From the NCBI GenBank assembly GCA_963921825.1, contig OY997594.1, positions 8,127,001 to 8,191,000 on the forward strand: a DNA stretch of 64,000 bases, written 5' to 3'. Positions within the stretch are counted from its first letter, which is position 1; each line of letters begins with the position of its first letter. Position numbers and translations under genes: made by a program. The DNA is from Erodium maritimum (taxonomy: Eukaryota > Streptophyta > Magnoliopsida > Geraniales > Geraniaceae). Under the pieces are notes generated by a model. It was not told the DNA's origin. It saw nothing but the letters and a program-made list of their open reading frames with translations, and made no database searches. Below, piece after piece: positions 26,278 to 50,450 of the stretch.

Positions 26278-27528
26278 ATGATTCATTTTCTCTGTTCAAG
26301 TTCAAGATCTGCGTTTCTCCAAAGTAGGGTTCTTAGGAGTACCCAACTCTTTGAGCTGCGATTCGATTTTGTTCAACTTTGCTGCCATCAGACTCATCCA
26401 CTTATTAGTAATTTCAGCGTTGTTAGATCATTCGCGTCAAAGGGTTTATCAAACTCTGATGAACTACAAGATTCGCTTAGTTCCAGTGCCTCTTACCTGG
26501 TGAAATCATGTGGTCTGTCTACAGAAAATGCAATTAGTGTTCGCAAGTATAATAAACTTGATCTTAAGAACCCAGAAAAAGCGGATTCAGTACTAAGGTT
26601 TTTCAGGGACCATGGATTCACAGATGCCCACATTACCAGGTTTGCTAGAAAATGTTCCCAATTGCTTCGAGCTGATCCAGACAAGAACCTTAAACCAAAG
26701 TTTGAGTTTTTCTATTCTAAGGGGATTTCAAGATCAGAGCTTCCAATCATTTTAGCTTCAAACCCGACTTTATTGCGAAGGAGTCTTGAGAATAACCTCA
26801 TTCCTTCGTTTAATTTCCTCAAGAGTGTCAGTTGCCTTGATGATCACAAGGTTATAATGGCTTTGAGACACTGGAAAAGGAGTTCGGGTACAAAAGCCTC
26901 AAATTCTTCTATGCAAGACAATCTTGTTCCGAACCTAGCACTTCTGAGGGGACTTGGAGTGCCTCAGGCTTCCATTTCCATGTTGCTGACTTGCTATCTA
27001 GTTACAACTTGCTGTGAACCCACTGAATTTGGCGAGCTTGTTCATAAAGTGAAGGAAATGGGGTTCAGCCCCGATCGAACATCGTTCGTTGCAGCACTCC
27101 ATGTGGTTTCCACGGTGACAGAGCCTAGATGGGAGTCTAAAATTGAGGTTTATAGGAGGTATGGTTTGCCTAGGGAGGATGTGCTTTCTGCATTTAGGAA
27201 ATGTCCTTGGTTCATGCTTGCATCGGAGAAGAAGATTGAGATGGTGCTTGACTTTGTTATTAACAAGATGGGTTGGTCTACACAGGATATTGCTACATGT
27301 CCAACCATTCTCTCTCTTAGTTTGGAAAAGAGGATCATCCCCAGATGCTACGTTTGTTATGTTCTGTCATCAAAGGGTATAATCAAGAAAGATGTAAAGT
27401 TAAGTACTTTATTTCTGCATACAGAAAAGGATTTTCTTCAAAAGTTTGTGACCAAATATGGGGAAGATGTTCCTGAGTTATTGGATGTGTATCAAGGGAA
27501 GATTAATCCTCTGGAAGCAACAGTTTAG
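26278..27528 (+). CDS. mTERF family protein, tandem copy 2
   Basis: Single-exon frame of 416 residues with a putative N-terminal organelle transit peptide (about residues 1-55, Arg/Ser/Phe-rich, ending near 'RSFAS') followed by mTERF repeats. Wording is shared nearly end to end with 21637-22860 and 55438-56688, including the identical ending 'YQGKINPLEATV'. The 100 bases before the start match the corresponding region of the other two genes, including 'ctcggtgagt', so the duplication included the promoter-proximal DNA. Differences are scattered substitutions without frameshift, which suggests all three copies have been kept under selection. The specific function is unknown. Confidence 0.92.
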   Translation: MIHFLCSSSRSAFLQSRVLRSTQLFELRFDFVQLCCHQTHPLISNFSVVRSFASKGLSNSDELQDSLSSSASYLVKSCGLSTENAISVRKYNKLDLKNPEKADSVLRFFRDHGFTDAHITRFARKCSQLLRADPDKNLKPKFEFFYSKGISRSELPIILASNPTLLRRSLENNLIPSFNFLKSVSCLDDHKVIMALRHWKRSSGTKASNSSMQDNLVPNLALLRGLGVPQASISMLLTCYLVTTCCEPTEFGELVHKVKEMGFSPDRTSFVAALHVVSTVTEPRWESKIEVYRRYGLPREDVLSAFRKCPWFMLASEKKIEMVLDFVINKMGWSTQDIATCPTILSLSLEKRIIPRCYVCYVLSSKGIIKKDVKLSTLFLHTEKDFLQKFVTKYGEDVPELLDVYQGKINPLEATV

Positions 27529-28063
27529 ACATTTCAAGGTCAGTTCAAACTAAGATTAGTAACCTCAGCATACAAAAGTTTAGGCATTTTCTACATTATT
27601 TCATGAGCTTAGTGATTTTTGTTTGTTTTGGAGTATGGTATATCTTTAAGCTATAAAGGTTGATGGGAACTGTGACTGTACTGAAGGTTTTGTTTGAGTG
27701 ACTAAACTTGTAGTTATTTGATTCCTAACAGGCTATTCAATTATTGAAACAAAAACTTGTAGTTATTTGACATGCTTTTTAGGTGATCGTAGTTGTGCAA
27801 AATTTGCCTACCTTTACAGTGATAATAGAGACAGTGATTGCACTAAACCCTTAAAAGGTTAATCGATTATGGATGTCCAACGAATATGGGTGTGCATTCT
27901 GTTATCAGTTCGATTGGTAATGATTTTCTTTGAGCTATCAAGATATTAAATTAGCTAACGTATTAAATTGTTCCATTATAGTTAATAGTCAATCAAATCA
28001 TATTCATATAATTAGACGGTTGAAATCCATTGTCTCTATTGTTAGATAGCGAGGCAAGCGAAG
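27529..28063. other. mTERF gene 2 3' flank with a dispersed repeat
   Basis: 27700-27920 shares phrases with 30120-30310 (both have 'gaaacaaaaactt', 'acaatagagacaatgattg' or its variant, and 'gttatggatgtc') and partly with 57290-57350 ('cttatggatgtccaacgaat'). This is either a dispersed repeat or the remains of duplicated mTERF flanks. No gene is seen. Confidence 0.4.
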
Positions 28064-30533: not shown

Positions 30534-31973
30534 TGACGCCCTGAGAATTAACTCACAAAAAGGGCGCGGCAAGCGCACCGGTCGTCAAGTAGTATTTCGG
30601 TTCAAGTCCGGTTATCGTACCCAAGGGAACAGTAAAACAGTCACTCGATTTAAAATCCGTTATTAATCTGTTTCTGAAAAGAGTTTGTTTTGGTTTTGAA
30701 AATGTAAATAACAGTTTGAAATCTAAAGTAAAATAAACTAAGAGCAGAGTTCAAGTGTTTGTGAAATTCAGGGAAAAAGGCGATCTAAATATGACTATTG
30801 ACTCGCAGGGGTTTGTGTTTACATGTGCAAATAAGGTAAGTTTAAAGGTAACGGAAGTTCTCTCGACTGGTCCTAAACATCTTTCGATCGAATTAAGTCC
30901 CTAGTATAATCTGACTACCTAGTTATTTCTAATCTGGGTGTAGTGAGACATACATCATTACGATTCACGAACTCCTCTAACTTTCGGTTTATACGCCTAT
31001 AGATGTTACACTCGTGTTAACCTAGATTTATTAGAGACTAGATTTAAACCCGAGTTACATAATCCTTAGTCATTTTAGTCACTCTCAGCTTTCGATTATT
31101 GAGTGCTAAAACCTAATCAACTATCAAGTGATCAATTTGATGAAGCATTAAGTTTAAATCATGTAAACATTATCCTAAACACAAATTGCACAATGTACCC
31201 ACAAACTCATTGAATTCATTACTCATATTGCTTCCCCTAGCCCTAGATCACTAGAAATTTAGTTCATGGAGATGAAGGAAGAACACAAAGATGAAAAAGA
31301 ACAAGAGATAAACATAATTGAAAGGTAAAGTTGATACAAAATACCAATTCAATGATGAAACTTCAATAGTTTTGCTTCAATCTTTGTTGCTAAGCACTTC
31401 TCTCTCACCAAAACTCAAACCCTAACTCTCAATCACTCTAAAACTATGCCCAATACAAGTTCTCTCCTTTTCTTAGTGGATGCTCTTCTATATATAGGAC
31501 TTCAAGACCTCTTTCCCTACTCCAAATCGGAATTGGAATAGGTAAATTTGGCTTTTGAATGAGGAAATTTCCTATTTTTATACAGAAAATGGAGCTGGGA
31601 GAAGGTCTAACGCGCGTGGCACGGAGCGTGGTCCGGAATGGGCCCAAAAACGGGCCGGAATGAGGCGCGGAACGTGCTGGAAACCGGCCTGGAATGGGCC
31701 ATAAACCGGGCCGGACTGAGTCCCGTAACGGGCCCCTTCCCGTATCCTAACAGTGACGTTCCCTTGACAAAAGTTGTAGATCTTTGAATTCTCTTTGATT
31801 TGATATATTATATGAAGCAATTTGGAGTTCGTATGAGGGAGTTATGCTCTTCGCAAGATCAGCCAGCTTCCAAAACTCCTAAAACCGGAGTTTCCTCTAT
31901 TTTTGCCCTTTTTTTGATCGAAGCACCTACAAAACACAACGAGAGACAAAGTACGAGTAACGAGGGAAAAGTG
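30534..31973 (-). repeat. 3' LTR of the Athila-like element, main piece
   Basis: This piece matches 48183-50350 once the hAT-type MITE is removed from the latter: same start 'tgacgccctgagaattaact', same 'gagatgaaggaagaacacaa' and same GC-rich 'ggcacggagcgtggtccgg' stretch. It is cut at 31973 by the MULE and resumes at 44331-44423 with 'caccaaattgtacaaccccg'. Frames such as 31578-31820 are LTR sequence, not genes. Confidence 0.85.
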
Positions 31974-32652
31974 GACGATTTATTAAAAAGGCCTTCTGAG
32001 GCTAATTTATTGCAAAAAAACCTTCACATGTTATATGTTTCGTAAAAAGACATCCACTTTATGTTTTCCAATATTACCCTTCTGTAATATTGGAAAAAAA
32101 ACCCTAAATCTCAGCCCCCCTTTTCGCACCCAGAAAACAGCCTGCCGACGACCTCCATATCCAAAAAAAATTCCGGCGTCCACCACGTTCCCCGTCACCG
32201 TCCACCACCGTCCAAAGCCCATTGAGTCCATTTAAGCAATCCTCCAAGTAAGGTAAGCTTGATTTCATCCTAAATTTGAAGATAGTGAATTTCAGTTTTA
32301 TGTTTGAGTCGATCTTCGAATGTAGGAGTGGAAAAACGATAAGTTATGGTTTAATGTGTGTGTAAACGTAGTGAAATAAACAAATGGTAGAATTGGGTGG
32401 AATAGATTAGTATGTCGTAGGTTTTGTAAAGTTTCTGAAATGGTGAACCAGTAGGGCCGATCGGCCTCGGATGGGGAAGACGAGCTGACCGATCGGTCTC
32501 GTATGCACGTGAATATATACGAGCCGGACGGCTGATATGCCAACCGATCGGGTGACCGATCGGATGGGTTATTTGCCGGACGGCTAATTGCATATACTAA
32601 ATCATACTCGATTAGTACAATATGTTCTTATGGGGTTGTAATTGTTACATGA
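31974..32652 (+). promoter_or_regulatory. MULE left arm and MURA upstream region
   Basis: Contains the left terminal inverted repeat and the probable MURA promoter and leader. Four CCGATCGG palindromes lie at about 32457, 32489, 32544 and 32556, with two 'gccggacggct' words beside them. This is the densest cluster of that palindrome in the element. Transposase and host-factor sites of MULEs often lie in such subterminal DNA, but no binding role is shown here. Confidence 0.5.
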
Positions 32653-35094
32653 ATGGGTGAAATTTTAGTCTGTGCTACTTACGGTGGTGAATATAAGCTA
32701 GTGGATGGGAAGTATGATTGGATATCAACAACAAACAATGGTTGTGTTAGCCTTATTGTGGACGATAATACAACGCTGAAGAAAGTGAAGGACCGCCTGT
32801 ATTCCGAAATCGGGGTGAATGAAAGGGAGATAGAACTGAAACTTAATTTTGTAGCTGGTATGCCCAATTTTGTAGGAGTTATCCCAATAGAGAAAATCTA
32901 CGATGATTTCACTCTTCGGGGTTTTGTACTGGAGAACAGAATTATAGGTACCAGAATCGTGTTACGTGTAGAGCTGAGCAAGAAAGATACAGTTTGTGGG
33001 GAAGATGATACTGTTGAACAGGGGGTCAACAATGTACCGGAAGCTGTTGCATATGAGTATGATGAACATGACAATGGGGGGCATGACGCTTATTTTGAAG
33101 TTGGTATTTATAGTGTTGCAGGTAATCCAAATAATGTAAATAACTCAGTTATTCGGCGGAGAGAACGTGATACGGAAGCACAAGCATCATCTCTTACGCC
33201 ACCATCGGTAAGCTTGGACAATATCGAGGAGAACCGTGAAATGGTGGAGTATGTTCATAGAAATGAGGAGTTTCCTGCGAATTCAGTGGATCCAGAACAA
33301 AGCACTGTCGGTTTTAGGGATGGGTCAAGTTTAGTAGTTGGTAAAGAGTTTCCGAACAAGAGAGCATTGATGAGTTATCTGAAAGACATTTCAATTAAGG
33401 GTGATTTTCGGATAAAACGTGATAGATCTTCAAAGACTTTATACATTGCAAAATGTGCTGGTGCTACTTGTGGGTGGAGAGTGCGTGCAGCAAAAGATCG
33501 CGGATCCCGTGAAACGTTCTCCATTAGAACGTATGAGTCTTTACATACTTGTTTGGTTAGTGAACGGAACTCCCGAAAAGGTAAGTTTACTACGGAAGAG
33601 ATTGCGTGTAGGTTGGTAAAAGAAAATAGTGAAGTAGAATATATTCCCAAACCACGTGCCATTCAAAACAATTTGGAGTTGGAGCAGATGGGCTTTTATA
33701 AATACTGGCAATGTTGGAGGGCAAGAACACTGGCGATGATTAAACTTGTAGGGGACCCAGCTTCAAGTTATGGATTACTCCCTGTTTATTTGCAGCAGGT
33801 TCAGAAGATGAATGCAGGTGTAGTAACTCATTTGGAGGTGGATGCGGAGAGTAGATTTAAATATGTTTTCGTAGCATATCGGCCATGCATTGAGGGATTT
33901 AACTATGCCTTGAGAAAAGTAATCTTAGTAGATGGTACGTGGTTGAAGACAAAGTATAAAGGGGTACTGATAATTGCAAGCGGGGAAGATGGTAATGGTC
34001 ACCAATATCTTGTGGCTTGGGCTGTAGTTGACTCGGAGAACAACGAATCATGGAAATGGTTCTTCCAAAAGTTGAGGTCGGAGATCCCGGATGGGGACGA
34101 CTTGGTTATCCTTTCGGATAGACATGTAAGTATCAGCAATGCAGTGTCGATCGTCTACCCAGAAGCCCAACATGGGCATTGTAGGTGGCATCTGACCCAA
34201 AATGTGAGAGAGAAGGTGGGGGCTAAGGAAAAAAACAGGTTATCGAAGTTGTTTCAAGAAGTTGCTGATGCGTACACAATGGAGAGGTTCCATGACAAGT
34301 ACGAGCAACTGAAAAAAATGTACCCGAAGGCGGTGGAATATCTGGAGGAGACAACAATACAACGTTGTCAATGGGCGAGATCTCACTTCGTAGGGTCGCG
34401 GTACAATATAATGACAACGAACGGGGTTGAGTTTATCAACAATGTAATAAGAGAAGCGAGAAAGCTGCCTGTTATAAAGTTGTTGAACAGGATGCAGGAA
34501 AGGGTTACCGAATGCTTCATGCAACGTCTGGATGTGATGAACAGGATACCGAACTCCCATATTGTAACTCCAAAGGTAGAGAAAATCATGTCTGCAAGCA
34601 ACAAGCTAGTCTCGCAGAGGGAAATAACACCACTGAACACACACGGCGAGTATCGGGTGAGGGCTGAACATAATGACGTATTGGTTCATTTAGGGATGAG
34701 GCAATGCAGTTGCCGGGAGTTTGACATAGACAGAATTCCTTGTGCCCATGCCCTAGCGTGTTGTGAGCATGCCAATATAGATCTGTATGACTTGTGCTCG
34801 AACTATTACACGCTATAAAAATGTGCTGAAGCATATTCTGGGACTGTGTACCCAGTGTCCCGTGCAGAAGAGTGGAATATTGATGAATTTGATCGTGAAG
34901 TTCTTATCAATGTTCTTCCTCCAGACTATGAAGCGAAACGCGGGAGACTGCAGGAATGAAGAATTCCTTCAGGAGGTGAGGTTCAACGAGCGACTCAAGC
35001 GGCTCCAAAGCGTCCCAGGAAATGTGGACATTGTGCTACCGTGGGTCACAACAGACGAACATGTCCTTCGCTTCGATCTGCATCTAATGTTTAG
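32653..35094 (+). pseudogene. MURA-type Mutator transposase with two in-frame stops
   Basis: The open part (32653-34818, 721 residues) has an N-terminal domain of about 100 residues, a MuDR/FAR1-type DNA-binding region (about 220-300), the MULE DDE domain with Asp427, Asp489 and Glu593 plus the 'CRWH' motif, and a SWIM zinc finger (C685, C687, C697, H699). The same frame continues past a TAA at 34816-34818 and a TGA at 34957-34959 to a TAG at 35092. That extension has the usual MURA C-terminus, including a 'CGHC..VGHNRRTC' zinc knuckle, so the stops are mutations rather than the natural end. Length to the final stop is 813 codons. The product would cut and paste the element; as read here it lacks the C-terminal knuckle. 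Confidence 0.85.
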
Positions 35095-35535
35095 GGTAGG
35101 TATGTTTCCATTTATGATAGACTGTGTGTATTTATTTATTCCTGAATATGGTACTATTTGCTGAGTATACTTTGTTTGATTTGCATGTGTTGAATGCATT
35201 TCCATTTCCATTACATGTGAGGAATGCATTTATGTTTGGGATAGGAACTAGGATAGTGGTGTATTTGCATGAAGCCGATCGGCAATGGGTGTCGCCGAAC
35301 GGCTTAATTGTGAAAAAATAAGATCTGTTATGTTGCCCGATCGGTCAAGGATGTTGTCCCAGACGGCACCGAATGGGGTAACAACTCATATAACCAAACA
35401 TCGTTCAAATACCACGAGTCACATGTAGATTCAACTTAAACGGTAAACACATTACAACCCTACTTTATTACCACAAAGACTCTCATATGGAGTTGAAAAT
35501 TTGAGGTCTTTGTGTCCGATACAAACTAACCCATA
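35095..35535. other. MULE spacer downstream of MURA
   Basis: Non-coding spacer between the convergent MURA and small-gene regions. It holds CCGATCGG palindromes at about 35275 and 35337 with 'cgaacggc' and 'ccagacggcacc' words nearby. Polyadenylation signals for both sides would be expected here, but I cannot assign them. Confidence 0.4.
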
Positions 35536-35805
35536 TTACCAACGGGTAGTTAGCTCGTCTTGGTGAGTGAAGGACAAGACGAAGTGTCGAAGTCCTTCGA
35601 GCTGCTCCAACACGATACGCGCATTATTCTCGTCTGCATATGTCCATCCAGTTCTATTCGTCTGTCTCAGCTCGTCCATCAGTGCATCAGCCTTCACTGA
35701 AACCTGAAGAAGACTTATCCTAATCTTCTGGAGCTTATCCAGCCTCTCCTTGTGTTCAAGTTCAACACGCTGTGTTGTAATGATGTTTCGTAAAGGTGCA
35801 GACAT
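35536..35805 (-). CDS. Small coiled-coil-like protein S1a (MULE accessory family 1)
   Basis: 89-residue minus-strand frame, related to S1b and S1c. It opens with 'MSAPLRNI' (S1b: 'MFAPLRDI'), followed by an acidic, Leu-rich helix-forming stretch with 'LQKIRISLLQV' aligned to 'LQQLKISLQRV' and 'LHQIKVSLQRV', and ends near 'LEGLRHFVLSFT'. S1a is longer, with about 17 extra residues before the C-terminal helix and a short tail after SFT. A TATA box (minus-strand TATAAAA) lies at 35847-35853, about 45 bases before the start. The spacing of hydrophobic residues suggests a coiled coil. I do not recognise the family. Its position inside a MULE suggests a role in transposition or in escaping silencing, which is inference. 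Confidence 0.6.
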   Translation of the reverse strand: MSAPLRNIITTQRVELEHKERLDKLQKIRISLLQVSVKADALMDELRQTNRTGWTYADENNARIVLEQLEGLRHFVLSFTHQDELTTRW

Positions 35806-35949
35806 TGTGGATGAAGTGAGTAGTGAGTGAAGAGGGTTGAAGTGAGTTTTATAGGCGTGGTGAGGTCCATAAATGTAAGTTGTGTGGTGGGTTCCATTAA
35901 TATGGGGTTGGGGGTTGTTGGGAAAACTTCATTTGTGGTTGTGATGACT

Positions 35950-36540
35950 TAATTTGATGGAGGAATGGCCCCAAACGGCGCCTGATGGGGCAAAAATTAG
36001 GGTTTGTTGAAGTCGGCTGGAGGGATGTCCCCAAACGGCGCCGGATGAGGTCAGTATTAGGGTTAGGTGTAGGGTTGGTCTCAGACTGCGCCGGATGAGG
36101 TCAATATTAGGGTTTATTGAAGTCGGATGGAGGGATGGCCCCATACGGCGCCAGATGAGGTCAGTATTAGGGTTAGGTGTAGGGTTGTTCTCAGACTGCG
36201 TCGGATGAGGTCAGTATTAGGGTTTGTTGAAGTCGGATGGAGGGATGGCCCCAAACGGCGCCGGATGAGGTCAGTATTAGGGTTAGGTGTAGGGTTGTTC
36301 TCAGACTACGCCGGATGAGGTGTCAAACAGCGCCGTATGGTGTCAATCAGACATAGGGAGGTCTCAAACAGCGCCGGATGAGGTCAATATTTGATTTTGG
36401 TGTAGGGTTGGTCTCAGACAGCGCCAGGTGAGGTGTCAAACAACGTCGTAGGGTGTCAATCGGACAGATGGGGGTCCCAAACAGCGCCGTATGGGGCCAA
36501 TCGGACAGATGGATGGACCCATCCCGCGCCGTTTGGGGAC
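35950..36540. repeat. 110-bp tandem repeat array with CAGTATTAG words
   Basis: Units begin at 'ggagggatg' near 36019, 36129 and 36239, a 110-base period, with degraded partial units on both sides. Each unit contains half-units built on a GGCGCC-centred word ('aaacggcgccggatgagg') followed by 'tcagtattaggg'. CAGTATTAG occurs at 36052, 36162, 36212 and 36272 and a CAATATTAG variant at 36102. The array lies between S1a and S1b and has no coding frame of its own. Confidence 0.8.
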
Positions 36541-36653
36541 CAATTCCTATTGTTTATTTGTTGGAAGGTCCCATTCAATTAACATTCAACGACAAACATT
36601 ACAGCCCTAATGATTACCACAAAGCCTCACATCTGGAAAATGGAAATGGTCTC

Positions 36654-36848
36654 CTAAGTGAAGGACCGTACAAGTTGTAAAATGCCCTCGAGGTGGTCCA
36701 AAAACTCCTTCAACTCCTGCTTAATTGGATTTGTATTCTCTGCGACCCTCTGAAGACTTATCTTCAGCTGCTGGAGCTCGGCCAATAACTCGGTGTATTC
36801 AAGTTCACCACTCTGTGGTGGAGTGATGTCCCTAAGAGGTGCAAACAT
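36654..36848 (-). CDS. Small coiled-coil-like protein S1b (MULE accessory family 1)
   Basis: 64-residue minus-strand frame. Its second half aligns without gaps to S1c: 'LKISLQRV', then 'KQELKEFLDHLEGILQLV' beside 'KQELKEAMDHLEGLLRFV', and both end in 'RSFT'. A TATA box (TTATAAAA on the minus strand) lies at 36913-36920, about 65 bases before the ATG. It shares the upstream words 'gaatatattccttccgtaaa' with S1c, so promoter and gene were duplicated together. The predicted protein is a single amphipathic helix or helical hairpin with no signal peptide or membrane segment. Function unknown; retention of the frame in two closely related copies argues for coding. Confidence 0.6.
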   Translation of the reverse strand: MFAPLRDITPPQSGELEYTELLAELQQLKISLQRVAENTNPIKQELKEFLDHLEGILQLVRSFT

Positions 36849-37122
36849 TGTTGATGAATAGAGTGTAGAATGAGTAAAGAGTAGTGATGAGTGAAGTGAA
36901 GTAAAGAGTGGGTTTTATAAGGGTGACTGAAGAATATATTCCTTCCGTAAAGTAGGAGTACAATTCTACCCTAAACATTACAACCCTAATTCTCACGACT
37001 CTCTTGCAATGTGAGTACAATTCAACACTAATTATTACCACAAAGCGTCACATACGACATTATAAAAAATGAAGGTCTTTGTAATCCGATACAAGCAAAC
37101 TCACATTAGCAAGTGTGATCTC

Positions 37123-37317
37123 TTAAGTGAAGGACCGTACGAAACGTAATAGGCCTTCGAGGTGGTCCATGGCCTCCTTCAACTCCTGCTTGAGTTGATC
37201 TGCCTTATCTTCCACCCTCTGAAGACTTACCTTGATCTGGTGGAGATCGTCCAATATCGCAATGCATTCTTCATCAGCAAGCCGTGGTGTATTGCTGCCC
37301 GAAAAAGGTGAAGACAT
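37123..37317 (-). CDS. Small coiled-coil-like protein S1c (MULE accessory family 1)
   Basis: 64-residue minus-strand frame, the closest relative of S1b. The N-terminal dozen residues differ, while the 45-residue helical part is conserved ('HQIKVSLQRVEDKADQLKQ' and following). A TATA box lies at 37372-37378, about 55 bases before the ATG. Start-to-start spacing to S1b is 469 bases; S1a to S1b is 1043 bases because the tandem array lies between. Acidic and Leu-rich, with heptad-like spacing. No known domain was recognised, and what it pairs with is unknown. Confidence 0.6.
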   Translation of the reverse strand: MSSPFSGSNTPRLADEECIAILDDLHQIKVSLQRVEDKADQLKQELKEAMDHLEGLLRFVRSFT

Positions 37318-37429
37318 TGTTGATAAACTAAGTAAAGAGTATTGATGAGTTCATTGAAGTGAATATTAGGGTTTATAAGGGTAACTAAAGAATATATTCC
37401 TTCCGTAAAGTATGTCCCATCTAATCGAC

Positions 37430-37640
37430 ATCGGAAGGAATATATTCCTTCCGTAAAGTATATTCAGTCTCAATATGCACAGATTGGGACCCAAACTGCG
37501 CATATTGGGACTCAATATGCGCATATTGAGTCCCAATAAGCGCAGTTTGGTACCCAGTCTGCGCATATTGAGGCCCAAACTGCGCAGATTGGGACTCAAT
37601 TTGCGCATAATGAGTCCCAATCTGCGCAGTTTGGGTCCAT
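37430..37640. repeat. Short tandem repeats centred on TGCGCA
   Basis: Units of about 20-22 bases alternate 'tgggactcaatatgcgcata' with its near reverse complement, so most units are themselves near-palindromes around TGCGCA. Two further units occur at about 38205-38250 in the spacer before S2a. The array lies just downstream of S2a and upstream of the S1c TATA box. A CCGATCGG site follows at about 37647. Confidence 0.75.
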
Positions 37641-37733
37641 GGGATGACCGATCGGCCCACAGCAAGCAATGTAAAACCCATAAACTTATTTTATTTCATC
37701 CAAACAGCATAATCATACAGCCTCATTACTACA

Positions 37734-38048
37734 TTACGCATCTAGCATAAAGTTAAGGAGCCTCTCCTCAGCTTCTCTAGATCTGTCCATCCACTCTACG
37801 AAACGTTGAAACCATGGAGGCTCCTCGTAAGGAAGCCTCACAAATGGGTGTTCACCATCTAGAGGTGGAGGACATTCTACATTCTTCTGTTGGACGAGTT
37901 CCTCTATTCGGTCCAACCGCTGAATTGAGTCATCGAGTATGCGGTCGTACTCAACGGCCCATGGTGGTGGCGCCACAAAGACGACTGTTCCGGCGTTCTC
38001 TCGTCGCCTCCACCTACGCTCAAGACGAGGATCGTGGTTGGGTTCCAT
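37734..38048 (-). CDS. Small protein S2a (MULE accessory family 2)
   Basis: 104-residue minus-strand frame. It shares a two-part layout with S2b and S2c. The first block, 'PPWAVEYDRILDDSIQRLDR', is followed by 'QQKNVECPPPLDGEHPFV'. The second block is 'EEPPWFQRFVEWMDRSREAEE'. A basic N-terminus ('RLERRWRRREN') could be a nuclear signal. A TATA box (TATAAAA) lies at 38114-38120, about 70 bases before the ATG, and 'tttgtgacag' abuts the start. I do not recognise the family. The conserved Trp, Phe and Glu positions suggest a folded, mostly helical protein; the role is unknown. Confidence 0.62.
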   Translation of the reverse strand: MEPNHDPRLERRWRRRENAGTVVFVAPPPWAVEYDRILDDSIQRLDRIEELVQQKNVECPPPLDGEHPFVRLPYEEPPWFQRFVEWMDRSREAEERLLNFMLDA

Positions 38049-38502
38049 CCTGTCACAAAAAGTATACCTAGAAAATGAGGGTTGGAGTGAAAATTATTCA
38101 AGTGGAGAGTGGATTTTATAGGCGTGTAAGGAATGAAGAGGGTTGGAGTTGGTGTGTGTACGCATTAATGGAGCCATTAATGTGTTGACTGTGTTGAGTC
38201 CCAATCTGCGCAGATTGAGTCCCAATATGCGCAGGTTGAGTCCATGTGCATATTAATGGTACCCATTAATGTGTTGACTGCGTTGATTGTAGTGCATGCA
38301 TTGGGACGTGCAGATTTTGTATAGGAAATGTATCAAATAAAAGCATTGTCATTCATTGCATTAATTCTACAAAACATAAACGTCATTCAGTCAAGTACCA
38401 ACATTATTATCCAAAAAATAAAAACAAACACTACGCAGCAAGCAGACTGTTAATGAGACTCTGAACAATTTGTTGGTTTCGACCCATCCACTGTACGTAA
38501 CC

Positions 38503-38838
38503 CTAGAACCAAGATGGCTCCTCGAACGAATGAAGAAGGTCATCCTCGTTCATCGGCGGTTGAATAAATGGGTTTTCACCAGGAGGGAGTGGAGGACACG
38601 GTAAATTTTTCTCACGCATGACTGCCTCAAGTTGGTCCAACCGCTGATTTCCTTCTTCAAGTAACTGGTAGTACTCTATCGACCATGCTGGTTCTGGTGC
38701 TTGATACATTCGTTCGGGCATTCGGACTATTCTGCCGTCGGCCAACATTGTGACGTATTCTCCGGCTAGCTCCCGTCTTATCCACACACGCTTTGCACGC
38801 TTTGCACGCTCCGCACAATTGGCTTGGTCGGGATCCAT
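38503..38838 (-). CDS. Small protein S2b (MULE accessory family 2), C-terminally shortened
   Basis: 111-residue minus-strand frame. The first block aligns with S2a and S2c ('PAWSIEYYQLLEEGNQRLDQ', then 'REKNLPCPPLPPGENPFI'), but it stops at 'SFEEPSWF', just where S2a and S2c continue into 'FVEWM'. The downstream sequence still carries related words near 38440-38500, so a stop codon probably removed the last part. A basic region ('ERAKRAKRVWIRR') lies near the N-terminus. A TATA box lies at 38985-38991. A plausible leader intron runs from 'attag|gtagtc' to 'tgtgacag' at the ATG. Start-to-start spacing to S2a is 790 bases. Confidence 0.58.
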   Translation of the reverse strand: MDPDQANCAERAKRAKRVWIRRELAGEYVTMLADGRIVRMPERMYQAPEPAWSIEYYQLLEEGNQRLDQLEAVMREKNLPCPPLPPGENPFIQPPMNEDDLLHSFEEPSWF

Positions 38839-39294
38839 TCTGTCACAAACATATACGTGGTTACACTACTAAAAAAACAAACACATCTAAAAAATTATAA
38901 TGCAAGAACATTATTCGACTACCTAATCCTTGAAAGCTGAGAGTGAAGGGGGTTGGAGTACAAATAATGGGGTAGCTAAGCCCCATTTATAGGCTGGTGA
39001 CAATGAATAGGGTTGGAGTGGGTGGATGAGTAGGTGTGTACCCATAAATATGTCTTGGGTGGAGAGGCATATTAATGAGAGACATTAATATGGGGCCAAT
39101 GTCTTGGATGTAGTGATTGAATAGGGACGTGCAGATTTTGTACAAGATATGTATCCATGATAAAAATCAATTTAGAGCAATTCCAGTAAACAAAAAAAAA
39201 ACACTGTGTTGGACAACAAAAGCATTACACTGAAGAACTCAACTTAAAGAGCAATAATACAACATTGAAGGTTGAAGAACTCAACTAATACACC

Positions 39295-39588
39295 TCAATT
39301 TAAAAGACCATCAATAATACGCCCGCAAACAGCTCTGTTCCCTTCCATCCATTCTACAAAACTCTTGAACCACGCTGGCTCCTCCACAGATTGAATGTCA
39401 CCCTGAAACTGGTCTACCCAAGGATGACCTTGTTCGAACCGGGGTTTTCCTTCCGCTAGTAGTTGGCGTTGAATCAATGGTATATTTATCTCGCGTGCAC
39501 GTCGCTCCATGTTGGCCAAGCGTTGATGATGTTCCTCCATGATTTGGTAGTATTGCTGCAACCACGCTGGTTGAGGTGCAGGTTCCAT
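39295..39588 (-). CDS. Small protein S2c (MULE accessory family 2)
   Basis: 97 residues from the ATG at 39588, chosen because 'MEPAPQPAW' aligns with the starts of the relatives; an upstream extension of the frame is leader sequence. The two conserved blocks are 'PAWLQQYYQIMEEHHQRLAN' and 'EEPAWFKSFVEWMEGNRAVC'. A TATA box lies at 39737-39743. The leader has the same donor-like 'atcag|gtattgg', but the acceptor-like site before the ATG reads 'tgtgtcg' instead of 'tgtgacag'. Start-to-start spacing to S2b is 750 bases. Spacer words such as 'gggacgtgcagattttgta' recur at about 38304 and 39123, showing duplication of the whole unit. Confidence 0.6.
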   Translation of the reverse strand: MEPAPQPAWLQQYYQIMEEHHQRLANMERRAREINIPLIQRQLLAEGKPRFEQGHPWVDQFQGDIQSVEEPAWFKSFVEWMEGNRAVCGRIIDGLLN

Positions 39589-40001
39589 CCCGACACAAAC
39601 ATACACATGTTTAAAGGTTCGAAAATAGCAAACATATTTACGAAAGAACAATGTTACCAATACCTGATGGCCGAAGATTATGTGATGTTGGAGGATTGGA
39701 TGGATGGAGTGAGTGAAATGGGAAGTGTAGAGGTCCATTTATAGGCGTGGTGTGGTGTGGTGACAAGGGTGAAGATCAATCAATGAGAATTCAACATGTT
39801 GGTGAGATGCAGTTGTGTATTTAATTGGAGTTCTTTTAATGCAAACATTCAGGTATGCGTACAAACATCAGATATGAGTCAAACCATCAAAAATATATTC
39901 GTCACTTCTCATTCAAAAGTTTATCAGTCATCCAACATTTTTACATACTACAGAAGATATTCGTCATCAGTCATCACATGAATACAATATTTGATGCGAA
40001 A

Positions 40002-43000
40002 CTACGGCACAAGTGTATGTCGGATGTGGTCTTTGAATTCCAGTTCCGTCATCCCCACCTCGATGAACTTTAGGGTGTAGATCCCACTATCGGCCATCCT
40101 ACAAACAAACACCAATATAATAAGCATGACATACAAGACTGTACTGCAAAGGTAAAATGAATAAGTCTGATACTTACTTCACGGCTTGCGGTATGGGTTC
40201 CACCCTCTCGAAGGTAAAATCCGCGTTGTATGCGGATAATGTCTCCGATGTCTCGGGTAAAACCCGGAAGAGCATCTTAGGGAGCATGTTGACATACAGG
40301 GTCATCAACACCTTCATCTCGAACTCTGATATTTGGGGACGGTAGCTGTCGTACACTTGGATTTTTCTTGCTTGCACGTCCACAACTAACAATATCCAGT
40401 GCTTGTTCTTGTGGTTCACTGGAAAATAAATCTTCTGCGCAGACATCCAAGTGCAAGGATAGAGATCCGGCTTCTTCCCTCGAGCATAGTTCATGAGCTC
40501 AAAGTCCGGTTCTATATTCGCCTCATACTCTGCACAACACAACTTGTGGAACACACAATCCAGCACTACATGGCTCTGCCTGAAAACATTCGGAAAATGT
40601 CGTTGTCTGCACCGTATGCCTGACAACGCATCGTCCATATGCTGAAAAAAGTTGAAAACAATATAAATTATATATTGGCAGGAAAAATATACTCATATGC
40701 TGCTTAAAATAAAATACTAACCTGCGGTGTGACCCATTCGCCAGGGGTTGCCAATGACCGGTAATATGAGGCGGGTAGGCCTCTGTAGAGGACTCCATCC
40801 TACAAACCGGTACGCACGGTACCAGAGTAATTCCTCAATCGATGGGGAATCTTCGCTGCAGGGTTCCAACTGCGGATCAGCCTCTGATCAAGGACACCGA
40901 GCAACTGGGTCCTCTTCCTCTTTCTGGAACTGGGCGGATCAGGTTCAAATAGGTGACAGGGAAGGGTAACCACGATCGATGGTGGCTCTCGAGGCTCCGA
41001 GGGTTCCCCCGGAGCCTGAGTCTGTGCCCCCGGAGCCTGAGACTGTGCCTCATCACCGGCACCTTCATCGTCGGTCGGTTCCTCCTCCCAAGACGACAGT
41101 TCCCGCGCAGGAGTTTGACTGACCTCTTCCTCCCCTTCGACCTCCAGACCTTCCCAAAAAGTCGACAGTGACCCCTCCACAGACTTATCCCCATCTTCCC
41201 CTCCTCCAAGTACCCCTCCCGCATTACGTGTCTGAGAATCAACTACCACGATCGGTGCTGGAACCGGAACTTGTCCCTCCTCAACCCCCTGCTGAACCGC
41301 AACCTGTCCCTCCTCACACACCACCTGTCCCTCCTCCGCCCTCACCTGAACATCAACCTCACCCCCCATCTGAACATCAGCCTCACCCCCCATCTCAACC
41401 TCATGGACCATATCCATATCCCGGGGTCCATGGCTAGACTCTCCAACCTGTTCCCGTCTTCCTCCTGCGTCACCTGATCCACGAGGCTGAGATTCATCAT
41501 CCCTTTGAAATCCGGCTTCATGCGACCGATGAGACCGAGGCGGGCAATGTGATCCTCGGGAGTCACCCCCAGATGCACGGTCGGTAGGCCCGGGCAGCGG
41601 GTCACGGGCTGCACCCTGGGGCCGGAGTATATGAAGGATCTCATCTAGTTTGCCCCCAAACTCTCTCCGCAACGCTCCAATGGCGTCCCCAAACTCAGTC
41701 CGTACCGCTCCAATAGAGTCCGCAACGGATTGGATCTTGCCCTGCAACTCTCCTATTTCAACGCGGACACCTCTGATATGATCATCTGCTGCGGCCTGTT
41801 CCCCCTGACGACGAGGGGTCTGGGGTAACTCTCCTACCCCGATGGTGTCCTCTTCTCGGCGACGAGAGCACTCAGCTCCATCCCCAACCGGATCCGGCGG
41901 TGTCTACTCTGTACCCATCACCTCATCCCCGGACTGACGATCAGGTGTCGGCTCCCTTTCAACTGGCTCTGCTTGCTCCATACCCTTATCATCCCATTCT
42001 ATCTCCCCTCCAGCCTCCAAAATTTCTGCAATCCGCTCAAGCGTCCTATCCGCTACCCTGTCGGGTATGACTCCCACATTTTGATTATGCGGAAGTGCCC
42101 TCTCTATTTCTGTGGGTATTAGGACACCCCGAGTCACCTGCACCTGCACACACATAACCATTAAATTCAATTCATATAACCAACCTACATCTACAATTAT
42201 ACGTCTACACTTATATTTTTTTACCTCGTCTTTCTGAAATTCGGTTGTCACCTCATCCGCCGACGGGGCCTTGGGCCATTTCGTGCGCCACTTAAAAAAC
42301 CTCGGTAGGTCCTCACTGTACTGTGGGTCCACCGTCCCCTACTTACTTGCCAGTGCTTCCATAGACTCAAATACAAAAGGCTGTTACACAAATCAAATTA
42401 TTAATAACCAATACGTAAATTAATTGATAATAATGCTCTTATTCAAATTGTATTAAATGTTTTACGTGCCGTAAATATCGGGAGCATACCGCATATGGTG
42501 TATGTGGCCCCCTGTCTGCCAGGGACGAGCGATTGGAACTTCGCTCTCAACTCTCGAATACAATCCTCCCTCAGATGCCGGAAGGAGATATACCCCCACG
42601 GGTACCGGTTGAACATGTCCAGGTCTTTTACTAATCCCATCCACTTTGGATCAATTGGTGTTGTCACTTTTGTGTGAGGTATCAACGCATCAGTGACGAA
42701 CAACAGCTGAGCCATCTTCACAATATTATAATCTGGCTCGGTCCTCCGGGTCCTCGGTTTCAACCGGGTAGTCACAAGGGCGGTCAACTTGTTTGTCAGG
42801 TCTAGTGGAGACACTCCACGCTGGTTCGAATCAAAATGTCTTTTCTCGAATGCTGTGGAACTCAATTGGCTCTGAAAATTTTCATCTCCACGGGTCGGTC
42901 TTGAGCAATTCAACCCCGTCATCAGTGTGTATTCCTTCAGGGACAACCTGAACGGTTTCCCTTTCAGCACGAACCACATTTCGGAGTCCCTTCTCACCGT

Positions 43001-43288
43001 GGTACTCCTAACTAATAGCATCCACGCCAGGTTGTTGGAGGGCTGGAACTTCTCCGGTAACCTGGTGAACATCCCGAATGGACCCGCTCTTATTGTTGCA
43101 GCTGTCAGCGGGTTTGCATCCTTCAGCTCATTGTACTTCTCATACAACACCTTATACCCACACCTGGCTGTCACACGACAATTGAAGTACTCCCCCTCTT
43201 GCAGTTCTGTTTCAATTCTTGGAAACCGTTGAGGTGCTTCTGACGGAGTTGCACTCGATATCGAAACAGAACCTACTTCCTCTTCCAT
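40002..43288 (-). pseudogene. DUF1985 plus Ulp1/C48 protease-like gene with three in-frame TAG stops
   Basis: Exons inferred on the minus strand: about 43288-42490 (DUF1985-like, 'LWFVLKGKPFRLSLKEYTLM' style wording around residue 130), 42380-40722, 40641-40178 and 40098-40002, with good GT/AG sites for the last two introns; the first junction is uncertain. Exon 2 stays in one frame from 42380 to 40722 except for TAG at 42339-42341, 41904-41906 and 40800-40802. Its middle is low-complexity, acidic and Pro/Gln-rich. The C-terminus is a C48 cysteine protease fold with 'KHWILLVV' (His at 40399-40401), 'VYDS' (Asp at 40348-40350) and the Gln before the nucleophile, but the nucleophile motif reads D-S-G instead of D-C-G (Ser codon 40086-40088). 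Active relatives cleave SUMO-type modifiers; this copy appears inactive. Confidence 0.78.
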
Positions 43289-44329
43289 TGACTGTATTAT
43301 GATTATAAGATGCATCCTAACATTATCTAGTAATCCAAATTGTAGTAGTAATATTATCATTATAAAATAACATTAACTAGTAATCAAAACTGTCATGGGC
43401 CGAACGGCCTTTCACCTAATTGTCCTTGGCCGATCGGGCAACAGAGAGTTTGGTCACTTTCCCATTCGGCTCATACTGACCCCATTCGGCGCCGTTTGGA
43501 CCTTGCTACACAAGATCAAAACGCCGCGTTTTACTACCGATATGCGCCATCTGGAGCCTTTGGAAGGAAAATGATTGGGGGCCAAAACGGCGTCGTCATT
43601 GGTGAAGGGGTGCCAGTTTGGGCCCTAGACTGGGCCTCACCGAGTTTATTGGGCCGTTGACTGGGCCTCAACCACCTTTGTGGCCCAACCTGCTCCGTTT
43701 GGTTCAACCACATTGGGGGCCACAACGACGTCGTTATGGGGTCTCATTCGGCTCCGACTTGTCATATCAATCGGAGCGGGTTGGGGACAAAACGTTGTCG
43801 TTGTGTCCCGACCTGCTCCGTCTGCAACTCCGGCGACTCAGTGGGCTAAAACGCCACCGTTTTAGCCCCAATCAGCACCGTCTGGACCCCAGTCGACTAC
43901 ACTGATTCCTTCTCCGGCAACGACCCTATTCCCTTCTACGCCTCCCCCATTCGCCGTAGCCTCATCGGCGATTTACAGTAACTAAACCCTAGGTTTTGCA
44001 AAAGGGAACTAAATCTAACACAAAATTTACGAGTTCAAATCGGACGTACCTGGTTCGACATTGTTGGGGTTCAAAATGTAGGAATTTCCTCTCGCCGGCG
44101 TCGTTGCTTGCTCGGAGATGATCGGGCTCTCGAAGTCGTCGACAGTCGTATTTCTGACTTTGACTCAGTGACGAAGACGAAGAGGCAAAGAAGAAGAAAG
44201 GGCGAGGGTATAACCGGCAGTTCATAATGTTTTCAATTAAAAAAAATTCAAATTAATTCGAATGCCAAATTACCGAGGCTACCCCGCAAATATATTAGCG
44301 TGATAAGGCCCTTTCCAATAATTCCTACG
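43289..44329. other. MULE right arm
   Basis: Non-coding arm upstream of the protease-like gene. It holds a CCGATCGG site near 43429, many words of the type 'ggcgccgtttgg', 'aacggcgtcgt' and 'aacgacgtcgtt' between 43480 and 43890, and the right terminal inverted repeat up to about 44329. Short frames at 43534-43905 are driven by these GC-rich words. The gene's promoter should lie here. Confidence 0.45.
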
Positions 44330-44330
44330 A

Positions 44331-44423
44331 GAAAAGTGCACCAAATTGTACAACCCCGGGACTAAAAAGCTCAATAATGTGGGCTAAAAACATCCAAAAC
44401 CGATGCATTTTATGCCTACATCA
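44331..44423 (-). repeat. 3' LTR of the Athila-like element, distal piece
   Basis: Continues the LTR interrupted by the MULE. It matches 50359-50450 almost base for base ('caccaaattgtacaaccccg' through 'tgcattttatgcctacatca'). Confidence 0.85.
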
Positions 44424-46471: not shown

Positions 46472-48062
46472 TTAATCAGGAGGCCTCCCAAAAATCTCAT
46501 ACTTCCATTGTGTCCTTCTCTTCAGGTGTGAATGAAGAAGTGGGAGAAGAAACACAATGTAGCACAAGATATTATTCCTCGAGTTTTGCAAAAGTTCCAA
46601 ACTCAAGGCTAATCTCATCAAGCTCGCATTCACATAATAATTATGATTTGGCTCATTTTGACATAACTTGATAGGGATATGATTCCCAAGAAGCAAAAAA
46701 TGCTCATGACAACAAGGGTCAAGAGCATCTACCACAATAGAGTAGTAGCTCACAAACGGGGAATGAGTTCTAGCAAATACATCACAAAAATTATGCTTTA
46801 TATCAAAATCTCTAGGGATAATTTCACATCAGTACCTTAAATCTTTCATATTTCATTTAGAGTACCCTAAATCTTTTTTGTGTCACCTCAGTACCCTAAA
46901 CTTTGATTAATTCATTTAGAGTACCCTAAATCTTTTTTGTGTCTCCTCAGTACCCTAAACTTTCATTAATTCCATTTTAGTACCCACTGTTAACTTAACA
47001 TATGATTTTCCATCCAAAATAGGTAAAATGACCATATTACCCCTCACCAACAACCAAAATTATGGTAAAGTTAACGGTGAGTACTAAAATGAAATTAATG
47101 AAAGTTTAGGGTACTAAAATGGAATTAATAAAAGTTTAGGGTACTCTAAACGAAATATGAAAGATTTAGGGTATTGAGATGACACAAAAAAGATTTAGGG
47201 TACTCTAAATGAAATATGAAAGATTTAGGGTACTGAGGTGGAATTAACCCAAATCTCTATGCTCAATATTAAACTTGAAAATCAACGGGATGGGTTGAAC
47301 ATATAGAGTTGATTTGCTAGAATCCAAAACTGAATCTCCCACACTAAAGGGAATTTCGACATCATGCTCGATGTCTACCAAAATAAAATCAATGGGAGAT
47401 TCAAATACAGCCCCTCTCTTGAGAGCATCTTCCATAGTACCCCTTGGATATCTAATAGATTTGTCAGCCAACTCTATGGATACTATGGAAGGATTCGGCT
47501 CAACAAGAGTTTGTGAACTATTTTCTATGATTCTATGATCATTATTTACATCTAAAGAATTCACTACATCAGAATTATATGGAGATGACATAGATAATAT
47601 ACAAGAGGGATTAGAATTTGATACCTCACATTCCGCACTTACCTCTAAACTCATGATTGAATCATGAGTTTCTTGCTCTATTGTGTCACATAAGTGTTTG
47701 GAACGATCATCCTCAATGTGAGTTTCTTGATCTTGTAGAGCTCTCTCATTCATCACTTGTATGAGAAGATTCATTTGATCTTCAAGCTTTTGAAATCGCT
47801 CGTTCATTTCTCTCTTTCTTTCTTCATCTCTTTTATCCTTCTCCGCCAATTTATTCATGAGAGCAAGACACATTGCTTCAAGTGATGACTCCTCATCATA
47901 AGACAATTGTGGTTCAACTTGATAACCTTGATCAAAAGTGGAAGCGTCCTCCCAACATTGACTATAGGAAATTGCCTTCACAAAATACTCACAATCGTAG
48001 TAAGCATGACCATTAGCTCCACACAAATCACAATACACATTATTATCATACCAATTCTCCAT
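46472..48062 (-). pseudogene. gag-type CCHC plus protease-like ORF, pol-deleted and cut by a MITE
   Basis: From the ATG at 48062 the minus-strand frame has a CCHC zinc knuckle (C-x2-C-x4-H-x4-C, about residues 11-24). A long acidic coiled-coil-like stretch around residues 70-115 follows, then the protease-type signature 'LADKSIRYPRGTMEDALK' and 'FILVDIEHDVEIPF' of plant Athila-type elements. The frame ends at 47244 only because it runs into the MITE at 46815-47250. Beyond the MITE a matching frame goes on to a stop at 46472, directly before the conserved post-pol phrase. No RT, RNase H or integrase motif occurs, so the original non-autonomous element already lacked pol. CCHC and protease regions act in RNA packaging and particle maturation. 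Confidence 0.75.
46815..47250. mobile_element. Mutator-type MITE with long inverted arms, TSD AAATCTCTA
   Basis: 436-bp foldback element. It starts GGGATAATTTCAC and ends with the reverse complement of GGGTTAATTCCAC. Arms of roughly 170 bases carry the repeated words 'gtaccctaaatctttt' and 'gtaccctaaacttt'. A perfect 9-bp duplication, AAATCTCTA, lies at 46806-46814 and 47251-47259; this size is typical of Mutator-type elements. It is inserted in the gag/protease frame. Confidence 0.85.
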
Positions 48063-48182: not shown

Positions 48183-50450
48183 TGACGCCCTGAGAATTAA
48201 CTCACAAAAAGGGCGCGGCAAGCGCACCGGTCGTCAAGTAGTATTTCGGTTCAAGTCTGGTTATCGTACCCAAGGGAGCAGTAAAACAGTCACTCGATTT
48301 AAAATCCGTTATTAATCTGTTTCTGAAAAGAGTTTGTTTTGGTTTTGAAAATATAAATAACAGTTGAAATCTAAAGTACAATAAACTAAGAGCAGAGTTC
48401 AAGTGTTTGTGAAATTCAGGGAAAAAGGCGATCTAGGCTTTTAACGGGGTCACAATATGACTATTGACTCGCAGGGGTTTGTGTTTACATGTGCAAATAA
48501 GGTAAGTTTAAAGGTAACGAAAGTTCTCTCGACTGGTCCTAAACATCTTTCGATCGAATTAGGTCCCTAGTATAATCTGACCACCTAGTTAATTCTAATC
48601 TGGGTGTAGTGAGACATACAACATTACGATTCACGAACTCCTCTAACTTTCGGTTTATACGCCTATAGCTGTTACACTCGTGTTAACCTAACTTTATTAG
48701 AGACTAGATTTAAACCCGAGTTACATGATCCTTAGTCCTTTTAGTCACGCTCAGCTTTCGATTATTGAGTGCTAAAACCTAATCAACTATCCAGTGATCA
48801 ATTTGATGAAGCATTGAGTTCAAATCATGTAAACATTATCCTAAACACAAATTGCACAATATACCCACAAACCCATTGAATCAATTACTCATATTGCTTC
48901 CCCTAGCTAGGGGTGTCCATGGGCCGAGCCCCGTTGCTAAATTTTGGAACCGGCCCGGAGTGACCGGGTCCAAAAAAAAACCATTCCCGGCCCTAGGCCC
49001 AAAAAGAGACTTTTGAACCCACCCGTATGAATTATGGGCCGATTCACCGGGTTGGACCGATCCACCCGAATTGCTTAAAAATGATCAAAAATTAATACAT
49101 TGACAGTAACACAATATGATTTCAAAAAAAAATCATTGGCCAAAAAACCATTAAAAACCATTGACAGTAACACATCGAAGGATGTGGATAAATATATATA
49201 CACACACAAGTCGGAAATGAATAAATCTACTCAGTACTCACCGGAACCCTCGAAATGAATGGAGGAAGAAGAAGAGTTGCTCGCATGCGGCGTCGCTATG
49301 GCTTATTTACAGCCCTCAATTTCCAAGGAAAGTAGGATAAGCCGTTTTGTGTCGCGTGCGGTACCTACTATAGTATTAGTATATTAATTAAATTTTCAAG
49401 GGCCAAGGGCCATTAAGGCTTATGAGTTATGACCAGGTGGGCCGGGTTCATGTGGTTTTAAAACTTTCAACCCGGGCCCGAGCCCATTCATTCCGGATCA
49501 AGCTTTTAGAGAACCGGTACCGCCCCCACAACCCATGGGGATAGGCCCAATGGGGCCGGTTGGTCCGGGTTGACCAGGTGGATCGGTTTTTGGATTAATT
49601 TTGGACACCCCTACCCCTAGCCCTAGATCACTAGAAATTTAGTTCATGGAGATGAAGGAAGAACACAAAGATGAAAAAGAACAAGAGATAAACATAATTG
49701 AAAGGTAAAGTTGATACAAAATACCAATTCAATGATGAAACTTCAATAGTTTTGCTTCAATCCTTGTTCCTAAGCACTTCTCTCTCACAAAAACTCAAAC
49801 CCTAACTCTCAATCACTCTAAAACTATGCCCAATACAAGTTCTCCTATTTTCTTAGTGGATGCTCTTCTATATATAGGACTTCAAGACCTCTTTTCCTAC
49901 TCCAAATCGGAATTGGAATAGGTAAATTTGGCTTTTGAATGAGGAAATTTCCTATTTTTATACAGAAAATGGAGCTGGGAGAAGGTCTGACGCGCGTGGC
50001 ACGGAGCGTGGTCCGGAATGGGCCCAAAAACGAGCCGGAATGAGGCCCGGAACGTGCTGGAAACCGGCCCGGAATAAGGCCCGCGATGGGCCATAAACCG
50101 GGCCGGACTGAGTCCCGGAACGGGCCCCTTCCCGTATCCTAACACTGACGTTCCCTTGACAAAAGTTGTAGATCTTTGAATTATCTTTGATTTGATATAT
50201 TATATGAAGCAATTCGGAGTTCGTATGAGGGAGTTATGCTCTTCGCAAGATCAGCCAGCTTCCAAAACTCCTAAAACCGGGGTTTCCTCTATTTTTGCCC
50301 TTTTTTCGATCGAAGCACCTAAAAAACACAACGAGAGACAATGTACGAGTAACGAGAGAAAAGTGCACCAAATTGTACAACCCCGGGACTAAAAAGCTCA
50401 ATAATGTGGGCTAAAAACATCCAAAACCGATGCATTTTATGCCTACATCA
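48183..50450 (-). repeat. 5' LTR of the Athila-like element
   Basis: 2268 bp including a 706-bp MITE and its 8-bp duplication, so about 1554 bp of LTR against about 1525 bp for the 3' LTR without the MULE. Compared with the 3' LTR it has a short extra 'gcttttaacggggtcaca' segment near 48437 and scattered substitutions. The right end 'gcctacatca' is followed by the GTTTC duplication at 50451-50455. Confidence 0.85.
48908..49613. mobile_element. hAT-type MITE, TSD CCCCTAGC
   Basis: 706-bp non-coding element with terminal inverted repeats TAGGGGTGTCCA and a perfect 8-bp duplication, CCCCTAGC, at 48900-48907 and 49614-49621. The 3' LTR at about 31234-31241 shows the empty site with a single copy. 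The 8-bp duplication and the end sequence are typical of hAT elements. The interior carries 'gggccggttggtccgggttg'-type GC words and no transposase. Confidence 0.9.

Follow-up and report, generated by a model that had tools for sequence, protein, structure and literature searches.

Organization of the element

We analyzed a 64,000-nucleotide stretch of the Erodium maritimum genome (assembly GCA_963921825.1, contig OY997594.1, positions 8,127,001 to 8,191,000; hereafter the window, whose numbering is used throughout), which contains a Mutator-like element (MULE) with a row of six small genes. A MULE had been proposed here in an initial annotation made from the sequence alone. Its transposase gene, a target-site duplication and an empty-site paralogue confirm that assignment, and the insertion can now be bounded at 31974–44328 (12,355 bp) by the empty-site paralogue and by degenerate terminal inverted repeats of ∼36 bp. 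The alignment score of these repeats (19) was reached by none of 1000 shuffles and by none of 2000 random window pairs. The target-site duplication is 10 bp long, as GGGAAAAGTG on the left (31964–31973) and GAGAAAAGTG on the right (44329–44338), with 9/10 positions identical, and falls within the size range of 8–11 bp given for MULEs (PMC6446971). The flanks of the element (30534–31976 and 44329–44423) align collinearly to a paralogue without the insertion at 48183–50450, in which the target sequence is uninterrupted near 50356–50368. This paralogue is a copy of the repeat that was hit by the MULE, and ∼700 bp of its own (48908–49610) are unmatched in the other copy.

Eight coding genes can be counted in the element: a transposase gene on the plus strand, a DUF1985–Ulp1 gene on the minus strand, and between them the six small genes, each with a TATA box, which the two large genes flank on both sides. 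The transposase gene (32653–35094) is open from 32653 to 34815 and has in-frame stops at 34816 and 34957, beyond which a zinc-knuckle-like stretch continues in the same frame to 35094. Its product contains a MULE domain (PF10551, E = 1.2e-23), and the DBD_Tnp_Mut (PF03108) and SWIM (PF04434) domains also score over their Pfam cut-offs.

Two unrelated families of small genes

All six small genes lie on the minus strand, at the coordinates first annotated. Family A consists of A1 (35536–35805, 89 amino acids), A2 (36654–36848, 64 amino acids), and A3 (37123–37317, 64 amino acids), and family B of B1 (37734–38048, 104 amino acids), B2 (38503–38838, 111 amino acids), and B3 (39295–39588, 97 amino acids). 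B2 is ended by an in-frame TAG, and a homologous tail follows in the same frame down to 38434. The frame of B3 is open further upstream and would give 147 amino acids from an earlier ATG.

The division into two mutually unrelated families of three members each was borne out by tblastn, blastp, and hhalign. With each member of a pair used as the query in turn, tblastn E values within family A were 8e-16 and 1e-16 for A2 and A3, 1e-8 and 7e-9 for A1 and A2, and 4e-5 and 8e-7 for A1 and A3. The corresponding values within family B were 5e-20 and 6e-12 for B1 and B2, 4e-9 and 2e-9 for B1 and B3, and 1e-9 and 4e-14 for B2 and B3. Searched against the whole window, each small protein found its two sister copies (E ≤ 4e-5) and nothing else below an E of 1. 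We rejected a shared protein ancestry of the two families: the best blastp match between them (A3 with B1) had an E of 0.030, and hhalign gave a probability of 3% over 9 columns, so that the families are unrelated at this sensitivity.

A Pfam scan of five of the small proteins (all but B2) gave no match over cut-off. The best weak match, UPF0184 to A3 (7.4e-4; 20.3 bits under a cut-off of 21.5), was not accepted as a family name. Profile matches in the PDB were likewise taken as chance similarities between helical proteins; for family A these were a DUF4201 protein (E = 0.059) followed by entries of the LEDGF/p75 integrase-binding domain (E of at least 0.24), and for family B the best was a designed coiled coil (E = 0.015). 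Profile scans of viral contigs found no relative of the transposase or of the family B alignment, as expected for a plant element.

Along the row, the start-to-start distances are 1043, 469, 731, 790, and 750 bp. The initial annotation had read this spacing as a sign of repeated unit duplication; of the units, those of family B alone are spaced nearly regularly. The titles and abstract openings of the literature that was searched hold no description of such a small-gene row, which is not to claim that none is in print.

A VANC/Kaonashi-like gene and its relatives

The second large gene (40005–43372, minus strand) is composed of a DUF1985 exon (42446–43372; PF09331, E = 6.7e-21), a variable middle part with peptide repeats (40803–42338), an Ulp1 domain (40692–40177), and a last exon that extends to 40005. 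The middle part contains DNA repeated in tandem with unit lengths of 21, 24, and 33 bp, and has one in-frame TAG (41904–41906). The Ulp1 domain (Peptidase_C48, PF02902) scored 46.6 bits (E = 4.7e-12) from one exon and 73 bits (E = 4.2e-20) with the last exon joined. The exon joints were placed by eye, and we infer that the DUF1985 and Ulp1 exons belong to one transcript.

The last exon (40005–40110) reads ADSGIYTLKF in the one copy seen. Ulp1 proteases have a DCG motif, which contains the catalytic cysteine, and the serine of DSG sits at its place. The catalytic cysteine is thus missing from this copy, which concerns the activity of the protein and is not needed for membership among the Ulp1-bearing VANC genes. 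This serine and the in-frame stops found in three genes (B2, the VANC-like gene, and the transposase gene) show that the present copy of the element is decayed.

VANC proteins have been described as containing DUF1985 and also tandem peptide motifs (PMC5735166), and VANC genes that bear Ulp1 are termed KIU (Kaonashi) genes in a 2026 review (PMC13317346). Since DUF1985 and Ulp1 occur here in the same gene, we assign the element to the VANC/Ulp1 (Kaonashi) type. The closest described counterparts are VANDAL21 (Hiun) and VANDAL6 of Arabidopsis, anti-silencing MULEs that encode VANA, VANB, and VANC. Like the present element, they combine a transposase with a DUF1985 gene and further coding sequence of unknown function (VANB), carry tandem-repeat motifs in non-coding DNA, and end in terminal repeats that are short and degenerate (PMC5735166, PMC10398659, PMC6446971). 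In contrast to the single VANB gene reported there, six small genes in two families are found here.

With the Kaonashi group (KI/KIU), the element shares a VANC-like gene that includes an Ulp1 domain. Orientations reported for Kaonashi/Ulp1 MULEs include the one seen here, in which this gene runs opposite to the transposase (PMC2528002), and Ulp1-bearing MULEs have been reported from melon, grapevine, and rice as well. Whereas the Arabidopsis Kaonashi group is described with three coding genes (PMC13317346), the present element has eight, and serine takes the place of the Ulp1 cysteine. Maize MuDR (mudrA/mudrB) likewise combines a transposase with an accessory gene of unknown function; DUF1985, Ulp1, and a small-gene row are not named for it in the account available (PMC6446971). 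Pack-MULEs also carry extra gene-like sequence, but unlike those elements, which are without a transposase and contain fragments of host genes, this one retains both its transposase and its VANC-like gene.

A CG-rich motif in the non-coding DNA

In addition to the DUF1985 gene, the element shows a second feature of VANC-type MULEs: its non-coding DNA holds a short motif that is repeated in tandem. We grew a 20-bp motif matrix (consensus CCAAACgGCGCCGgATGGGG) from an array of 110-bp units. At a score of at least 16, the matrix identified 31 sites, all of them within the element and outside genes, and none in the other 51.6 kb of the window. At a score of at least 10, 36 sites lie inside the element and 1 outside (shuffled element: mean 1.1, maximum 5); three of the five weaker sites inside the element (score 10–16) fall in genes. 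As the matrix was trained on the same sites, these counts describe an enrichment and do not test it.

The strong sites are spread over six regions. One (score 16.8) lies in the transposase leader (32457–32563) beside four copies of CCGATCGG, and one (score 24.9) in the gap between the transposase and A1 (35275–35378) beside two. Array 1 (35958–36550), detected by Tandem Repeats Finder, consists of ∼110-bp units (CCAAACGGCGCCGGATGAGG and variants) and holds 12 sites scoring 20–30. Array 2 (37460–37655) consists of 21-bp near-palindromic units (e.g. CCCAAACTGCGCAGATTGGG) with eight sites and one CCGATCGG at 37648. Two further sites lie upstream of B1 (array 3, 38194–38243), and seven, with one CCGATCGG, upstream of the VANC-like gene (43430–43885). 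In total, CCGATCGG, a sequence picked by eye, occurs at eight places in the element and nowhere in the rest of the window.

Many of the sites are nearly palindromic. Across 28 of the 31, a mean of 13.6 of 20 places match (range 6–20) in a palindrome register that was picked after inspection, where chance would give ∼5 by an estimate that was not simulated. Palindromy is strongest in array 2 and weakest ahead of the VANC-like gene. Such palindromic sites suggest a dimeric binder. VANC motifs have been described upstream of VANA21 and within introns of VANB21 and VANC21, where they form tandem repeats (PMC5735166), and by analogy the motif copies may be candidate landing sites of the element's VANC-like protein. 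In contrast to the VANDAL motifs YAGTATTAY and AGTTGTCC/AGTTGTAC, the present motif is 20 bp long, CG-rich, and often palindromic.

As a separate observation, array 1 contains four copies of CAGTATTAG (36052–36280), a sequence that agrees with the VANC21 motif YAGTATTAY at 8/9 places. It is part of one tandem unit, and YAGTATTA was found seven times outside the element too; we do not rely on this match.

Promoters and predicted structures of the small genes

Each small gene has its own TATA box, as first annotated, with TATAA found 48–155 nucleotides upstream of every ATG (at −48, −71, and −60 for A1, A2, and A3, and at −72, −153, and −155 for B1, B2, and B3). A second TATAA lies upstream of A2 and of B2. 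The sequence CACGCCTATAAA is exact at A1, B1, and B3 and occurs at no other place in the window, so that unrelated A and B proteins share a promoter core. Among 2000 control pairs drawn from 83 sites, 2.5% and 1.7% reached the promoter scores of A1–B1 and A1–B3, respectively, and the upper tail of these controls is inflated by self pairs and repeated genes.

Directly before the ATG of B1 and B2, and in altered form in B3, lies a splice-acceptor-like TTTGTGACAG (38048–38100, 38838–38900, and 39588–39700). This arrangement suggests an intron in the 5′ untranslated region of family B that is mostly deleted in B1.

Gene-like TATA boxes and TTTGTGACAG just before the ATG of B1 and B2 are features that would be expected if one or two small host genes had been taken up with their promoters and duplicated inside the element, as passengers without a role in the transposon cycle. 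The capture of host genes is described as frequent in MULEs (PMC13317346, PMC6446971), and the lack of constraint on family A (see below) would fit such passengers. Against this stand the promoter core common to A1, B1, and B3 despite their unrelated proteins, the position of the motif arrays between the small genes, and the overall constraint on family B, and we consider this origin possible, though unlikely.

The structure predicted for A3 is one long helix of 55 residues (residues 9–63) with a predicted local distance difference test score (pLDDT) of 87, and its sequence fits a heptad pattern, a fit for which no control was run. With three sequences per family, the models support the description "helical" and no finer one.

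Proposed role of the small genes

We propose that the insertion is a decayed VANC/Ulp1-type (Kaonashi-like) Mutator element whose multiplied small genes act as accessory genes and whose DUF1985 protein targets the motif arrays, a reading to which we assign a probability of roughly 0.5. By analogy to VANC21 and VANC6 in Arabidopsis, the DUF1985 protein of intact copies would bind the arrays and free the element of DNA methylation, and the promoters of the small genes, which lie between the arrays, would thereby be opened. The way in which anti-silencing follows target recognition is named as an important remaining question for the Arabidopsis proteins (PMC5735166). The rows themselves would have arisen by tandem duplication of gene-plus-promoter units within the element.

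The least supported step concerns the small, largely helical proteins, which might be accessory, oligomerizing partners of the transposase or of the VANC-like protein and might correspond to VANB in position. VANB probably lies between VANA and VANC, as suggested by the locus numbers of VANB21 (At2g23490) and VANC21 (At2g23480). The function of VANB is given as unknown (PMC6446971). The initial annotation had suggested escape from silencing as a possible role of the small genes; the DUF1985/Ulp1 gene of VANC kind and the non-coding motif arrays favor such a role indirectly for the element, not for the small genes themselves.

A bolder and rather improbable extension is that cassettes of tiny helical proteins, able to expand, are present in some anti-silencing MULEs. 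Their two families, with one promoter core in common, would act together with the DUF1985/Ulp1 protein on the palindromic motif arrays, for example as dimerizing co-binders or by modifying the choice of target, and family A, which changes fast, would join in the co-evolution of protein and motif known for VANC. Should the row recur in other copies, the accessory part of anti-silencing transposons would gain a small, testable set of proteins, and a Kaonashi-type VANC protein would gain a candidate target motif of palindromic form.

Coding constraint and alternative explanations

The ratio of nonsynonymous to synonymous substitution rates (ω) from codon models separates the two families. For family B together, with the B2 stop codon masked, ω is 0.46 (p = 4.2e-4), and it is 0.23 for B1/B3 (p = 4e-4) and 0.31 for B2/B3 (p = 4e-4). 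The family value is rough because synonymous change between B3 and the other B copies is near saturation (NG86 dS 1.7–2.2). Within family A, ω is 0.56 for A1/A2 (p = 0.15) and 0.73 for A1/A3 (p = 0.40). Values from counting methods agree with the ω values in direction (LWL85 for five of the six pairs, YN00 for one pair).

We also read one nucleotide alignment per pair in all six frames and compared the mean BLOSUM62 scores. The coding frame exceeds all five others in every B pair (2.62 versus at most 1.76, 1.85 versus 0.80, and 2.10 versus 1.51), and slightly so for A1–A2 (1.97 versus at most 1.68) and A1–A3 (1.77 versus at most 1.63). In simulations of neutral change, the open frames were retained in 12% of cases for A2 and A3, in 1.3% for all three A genes, and in 0/4000 for all three B genes; the simulation is crude and substitution-only, and B2 as sequenced contains a stop. 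Family B was constrained at the protein level before the decay of this copy, and under the proposed accessory role it would have been kept by selection on the protein while family A drifts or turns over fast.

A number of results weigh against this proposal. Family A as a whole gives an ω of 0.85 (p = 0.58), A2/A3 one of 1.63 (p = 0.28), and B1/B2 one of 0.70 that does not differ from 1 (p = 0.23). A value near 1 between copies had been named at the outset as an outcome that would speak against two accessory protein families; it is found for family A and not for family B overall, despite B1/B2. The coding-frame score of A2–A3 (2.36) lies inside its six-frame range (1.89–2.52), the identity of B1/B2 in frame (0.44) lies inside the range of the other frames (0.37–0.47), and A2/A3 are 47% identical in frame and 48–56% in the five other frames. 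The claim that amino-acid similarity outlasts DNA divergence therefore fits family B, judged by mean BLOSUM62 scores, and does not fit A2/A3. In addition, the promoter likeness of A2–B2, A3–B2, and A3–B3 is at control level, the B1 model shows three helices at low confidence (pLDDT 66), and CpG retention is mixed and was not used (0.84 in array 1, 0.72 in array 2, 0.91 upstream of the VANC-like gene, and 1.03 and 1.46 in the two CCGATCGG stretches, against 0.74 in the window). B2 is truncated, and with serine for the Ulp1 cysteine and stops in the transposase and the VANC-like gene, this copy may produce few of these proteins.

Both the ω values and the A2/A3 six-frame test split along the lines of a mixed origin, in which B is a true accessory family and A a DNA-level unit duplication whose frames, open by chance or through recent origin, encode nothing that is used. 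In the A2/A3 alignment (36560–37412), identity over ungapped columns is 85–86% in the flanks and 75% in the coding DNA (Fisher p = 0.009, with counts rounded from the identities and the 54 flank gap columns excluded). To judge from this alignment, A2 and A3 are a unit duplication, and their promoters seem to have been kept or converted while the frames changed. The same alignment is free of gaps over the 195 coding columns, whereas one flank has 11 gap columns and the other 43; this argues against a family without coding function, as do the low retention simulated for three open A frames, the slight excess of the A1–A2 and A1–A3 coding-frame scores, and the heptad fit of A3. The simulated retention for A2 and A3 and for all B genes is in turn what a mixed origin would predict; on balance we hold it to be unlikely.

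The serine at the Ulp1 cysteine place and the stops in three genes (B2, the VANC-like gene, and the transposase gene) would also be compatible with a row that is, as a whole, what is left of accessory genes in a dead element, without present function. Five of the six small frames are open to the family ends, and the condition of a single copy says little about the family; we regard this explanation as very unlikely compared with the accessory role proposed above.

Other features of the window

Outside the element, tandem repeats of ∼183 and ∼354 bp at 59192–60336 are open on both strands (frames of 544 and 461 amino acids), and these frames gave no Pfam match at an E of 0.001. A partial, host-type Myb DNA-binding gene lies at 19350–20213 (Pfam, E = 1.1e-5); together with the mTERF and DUF1985 matches, it gives the window the gene content of a plant genome. 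Three similar gene copies at 21451–23041, 26108–27709, and 55246–56899 are 85–92% alike in their DNA, and the first, the sole copy scanned, contains an mTERF domain (Pfam). Two long imperfect palindromes (46815–47250 and 58403–58742), 81–82% identical to their own inverted sequence, resemble miniature inverted-repeat transposable elements.

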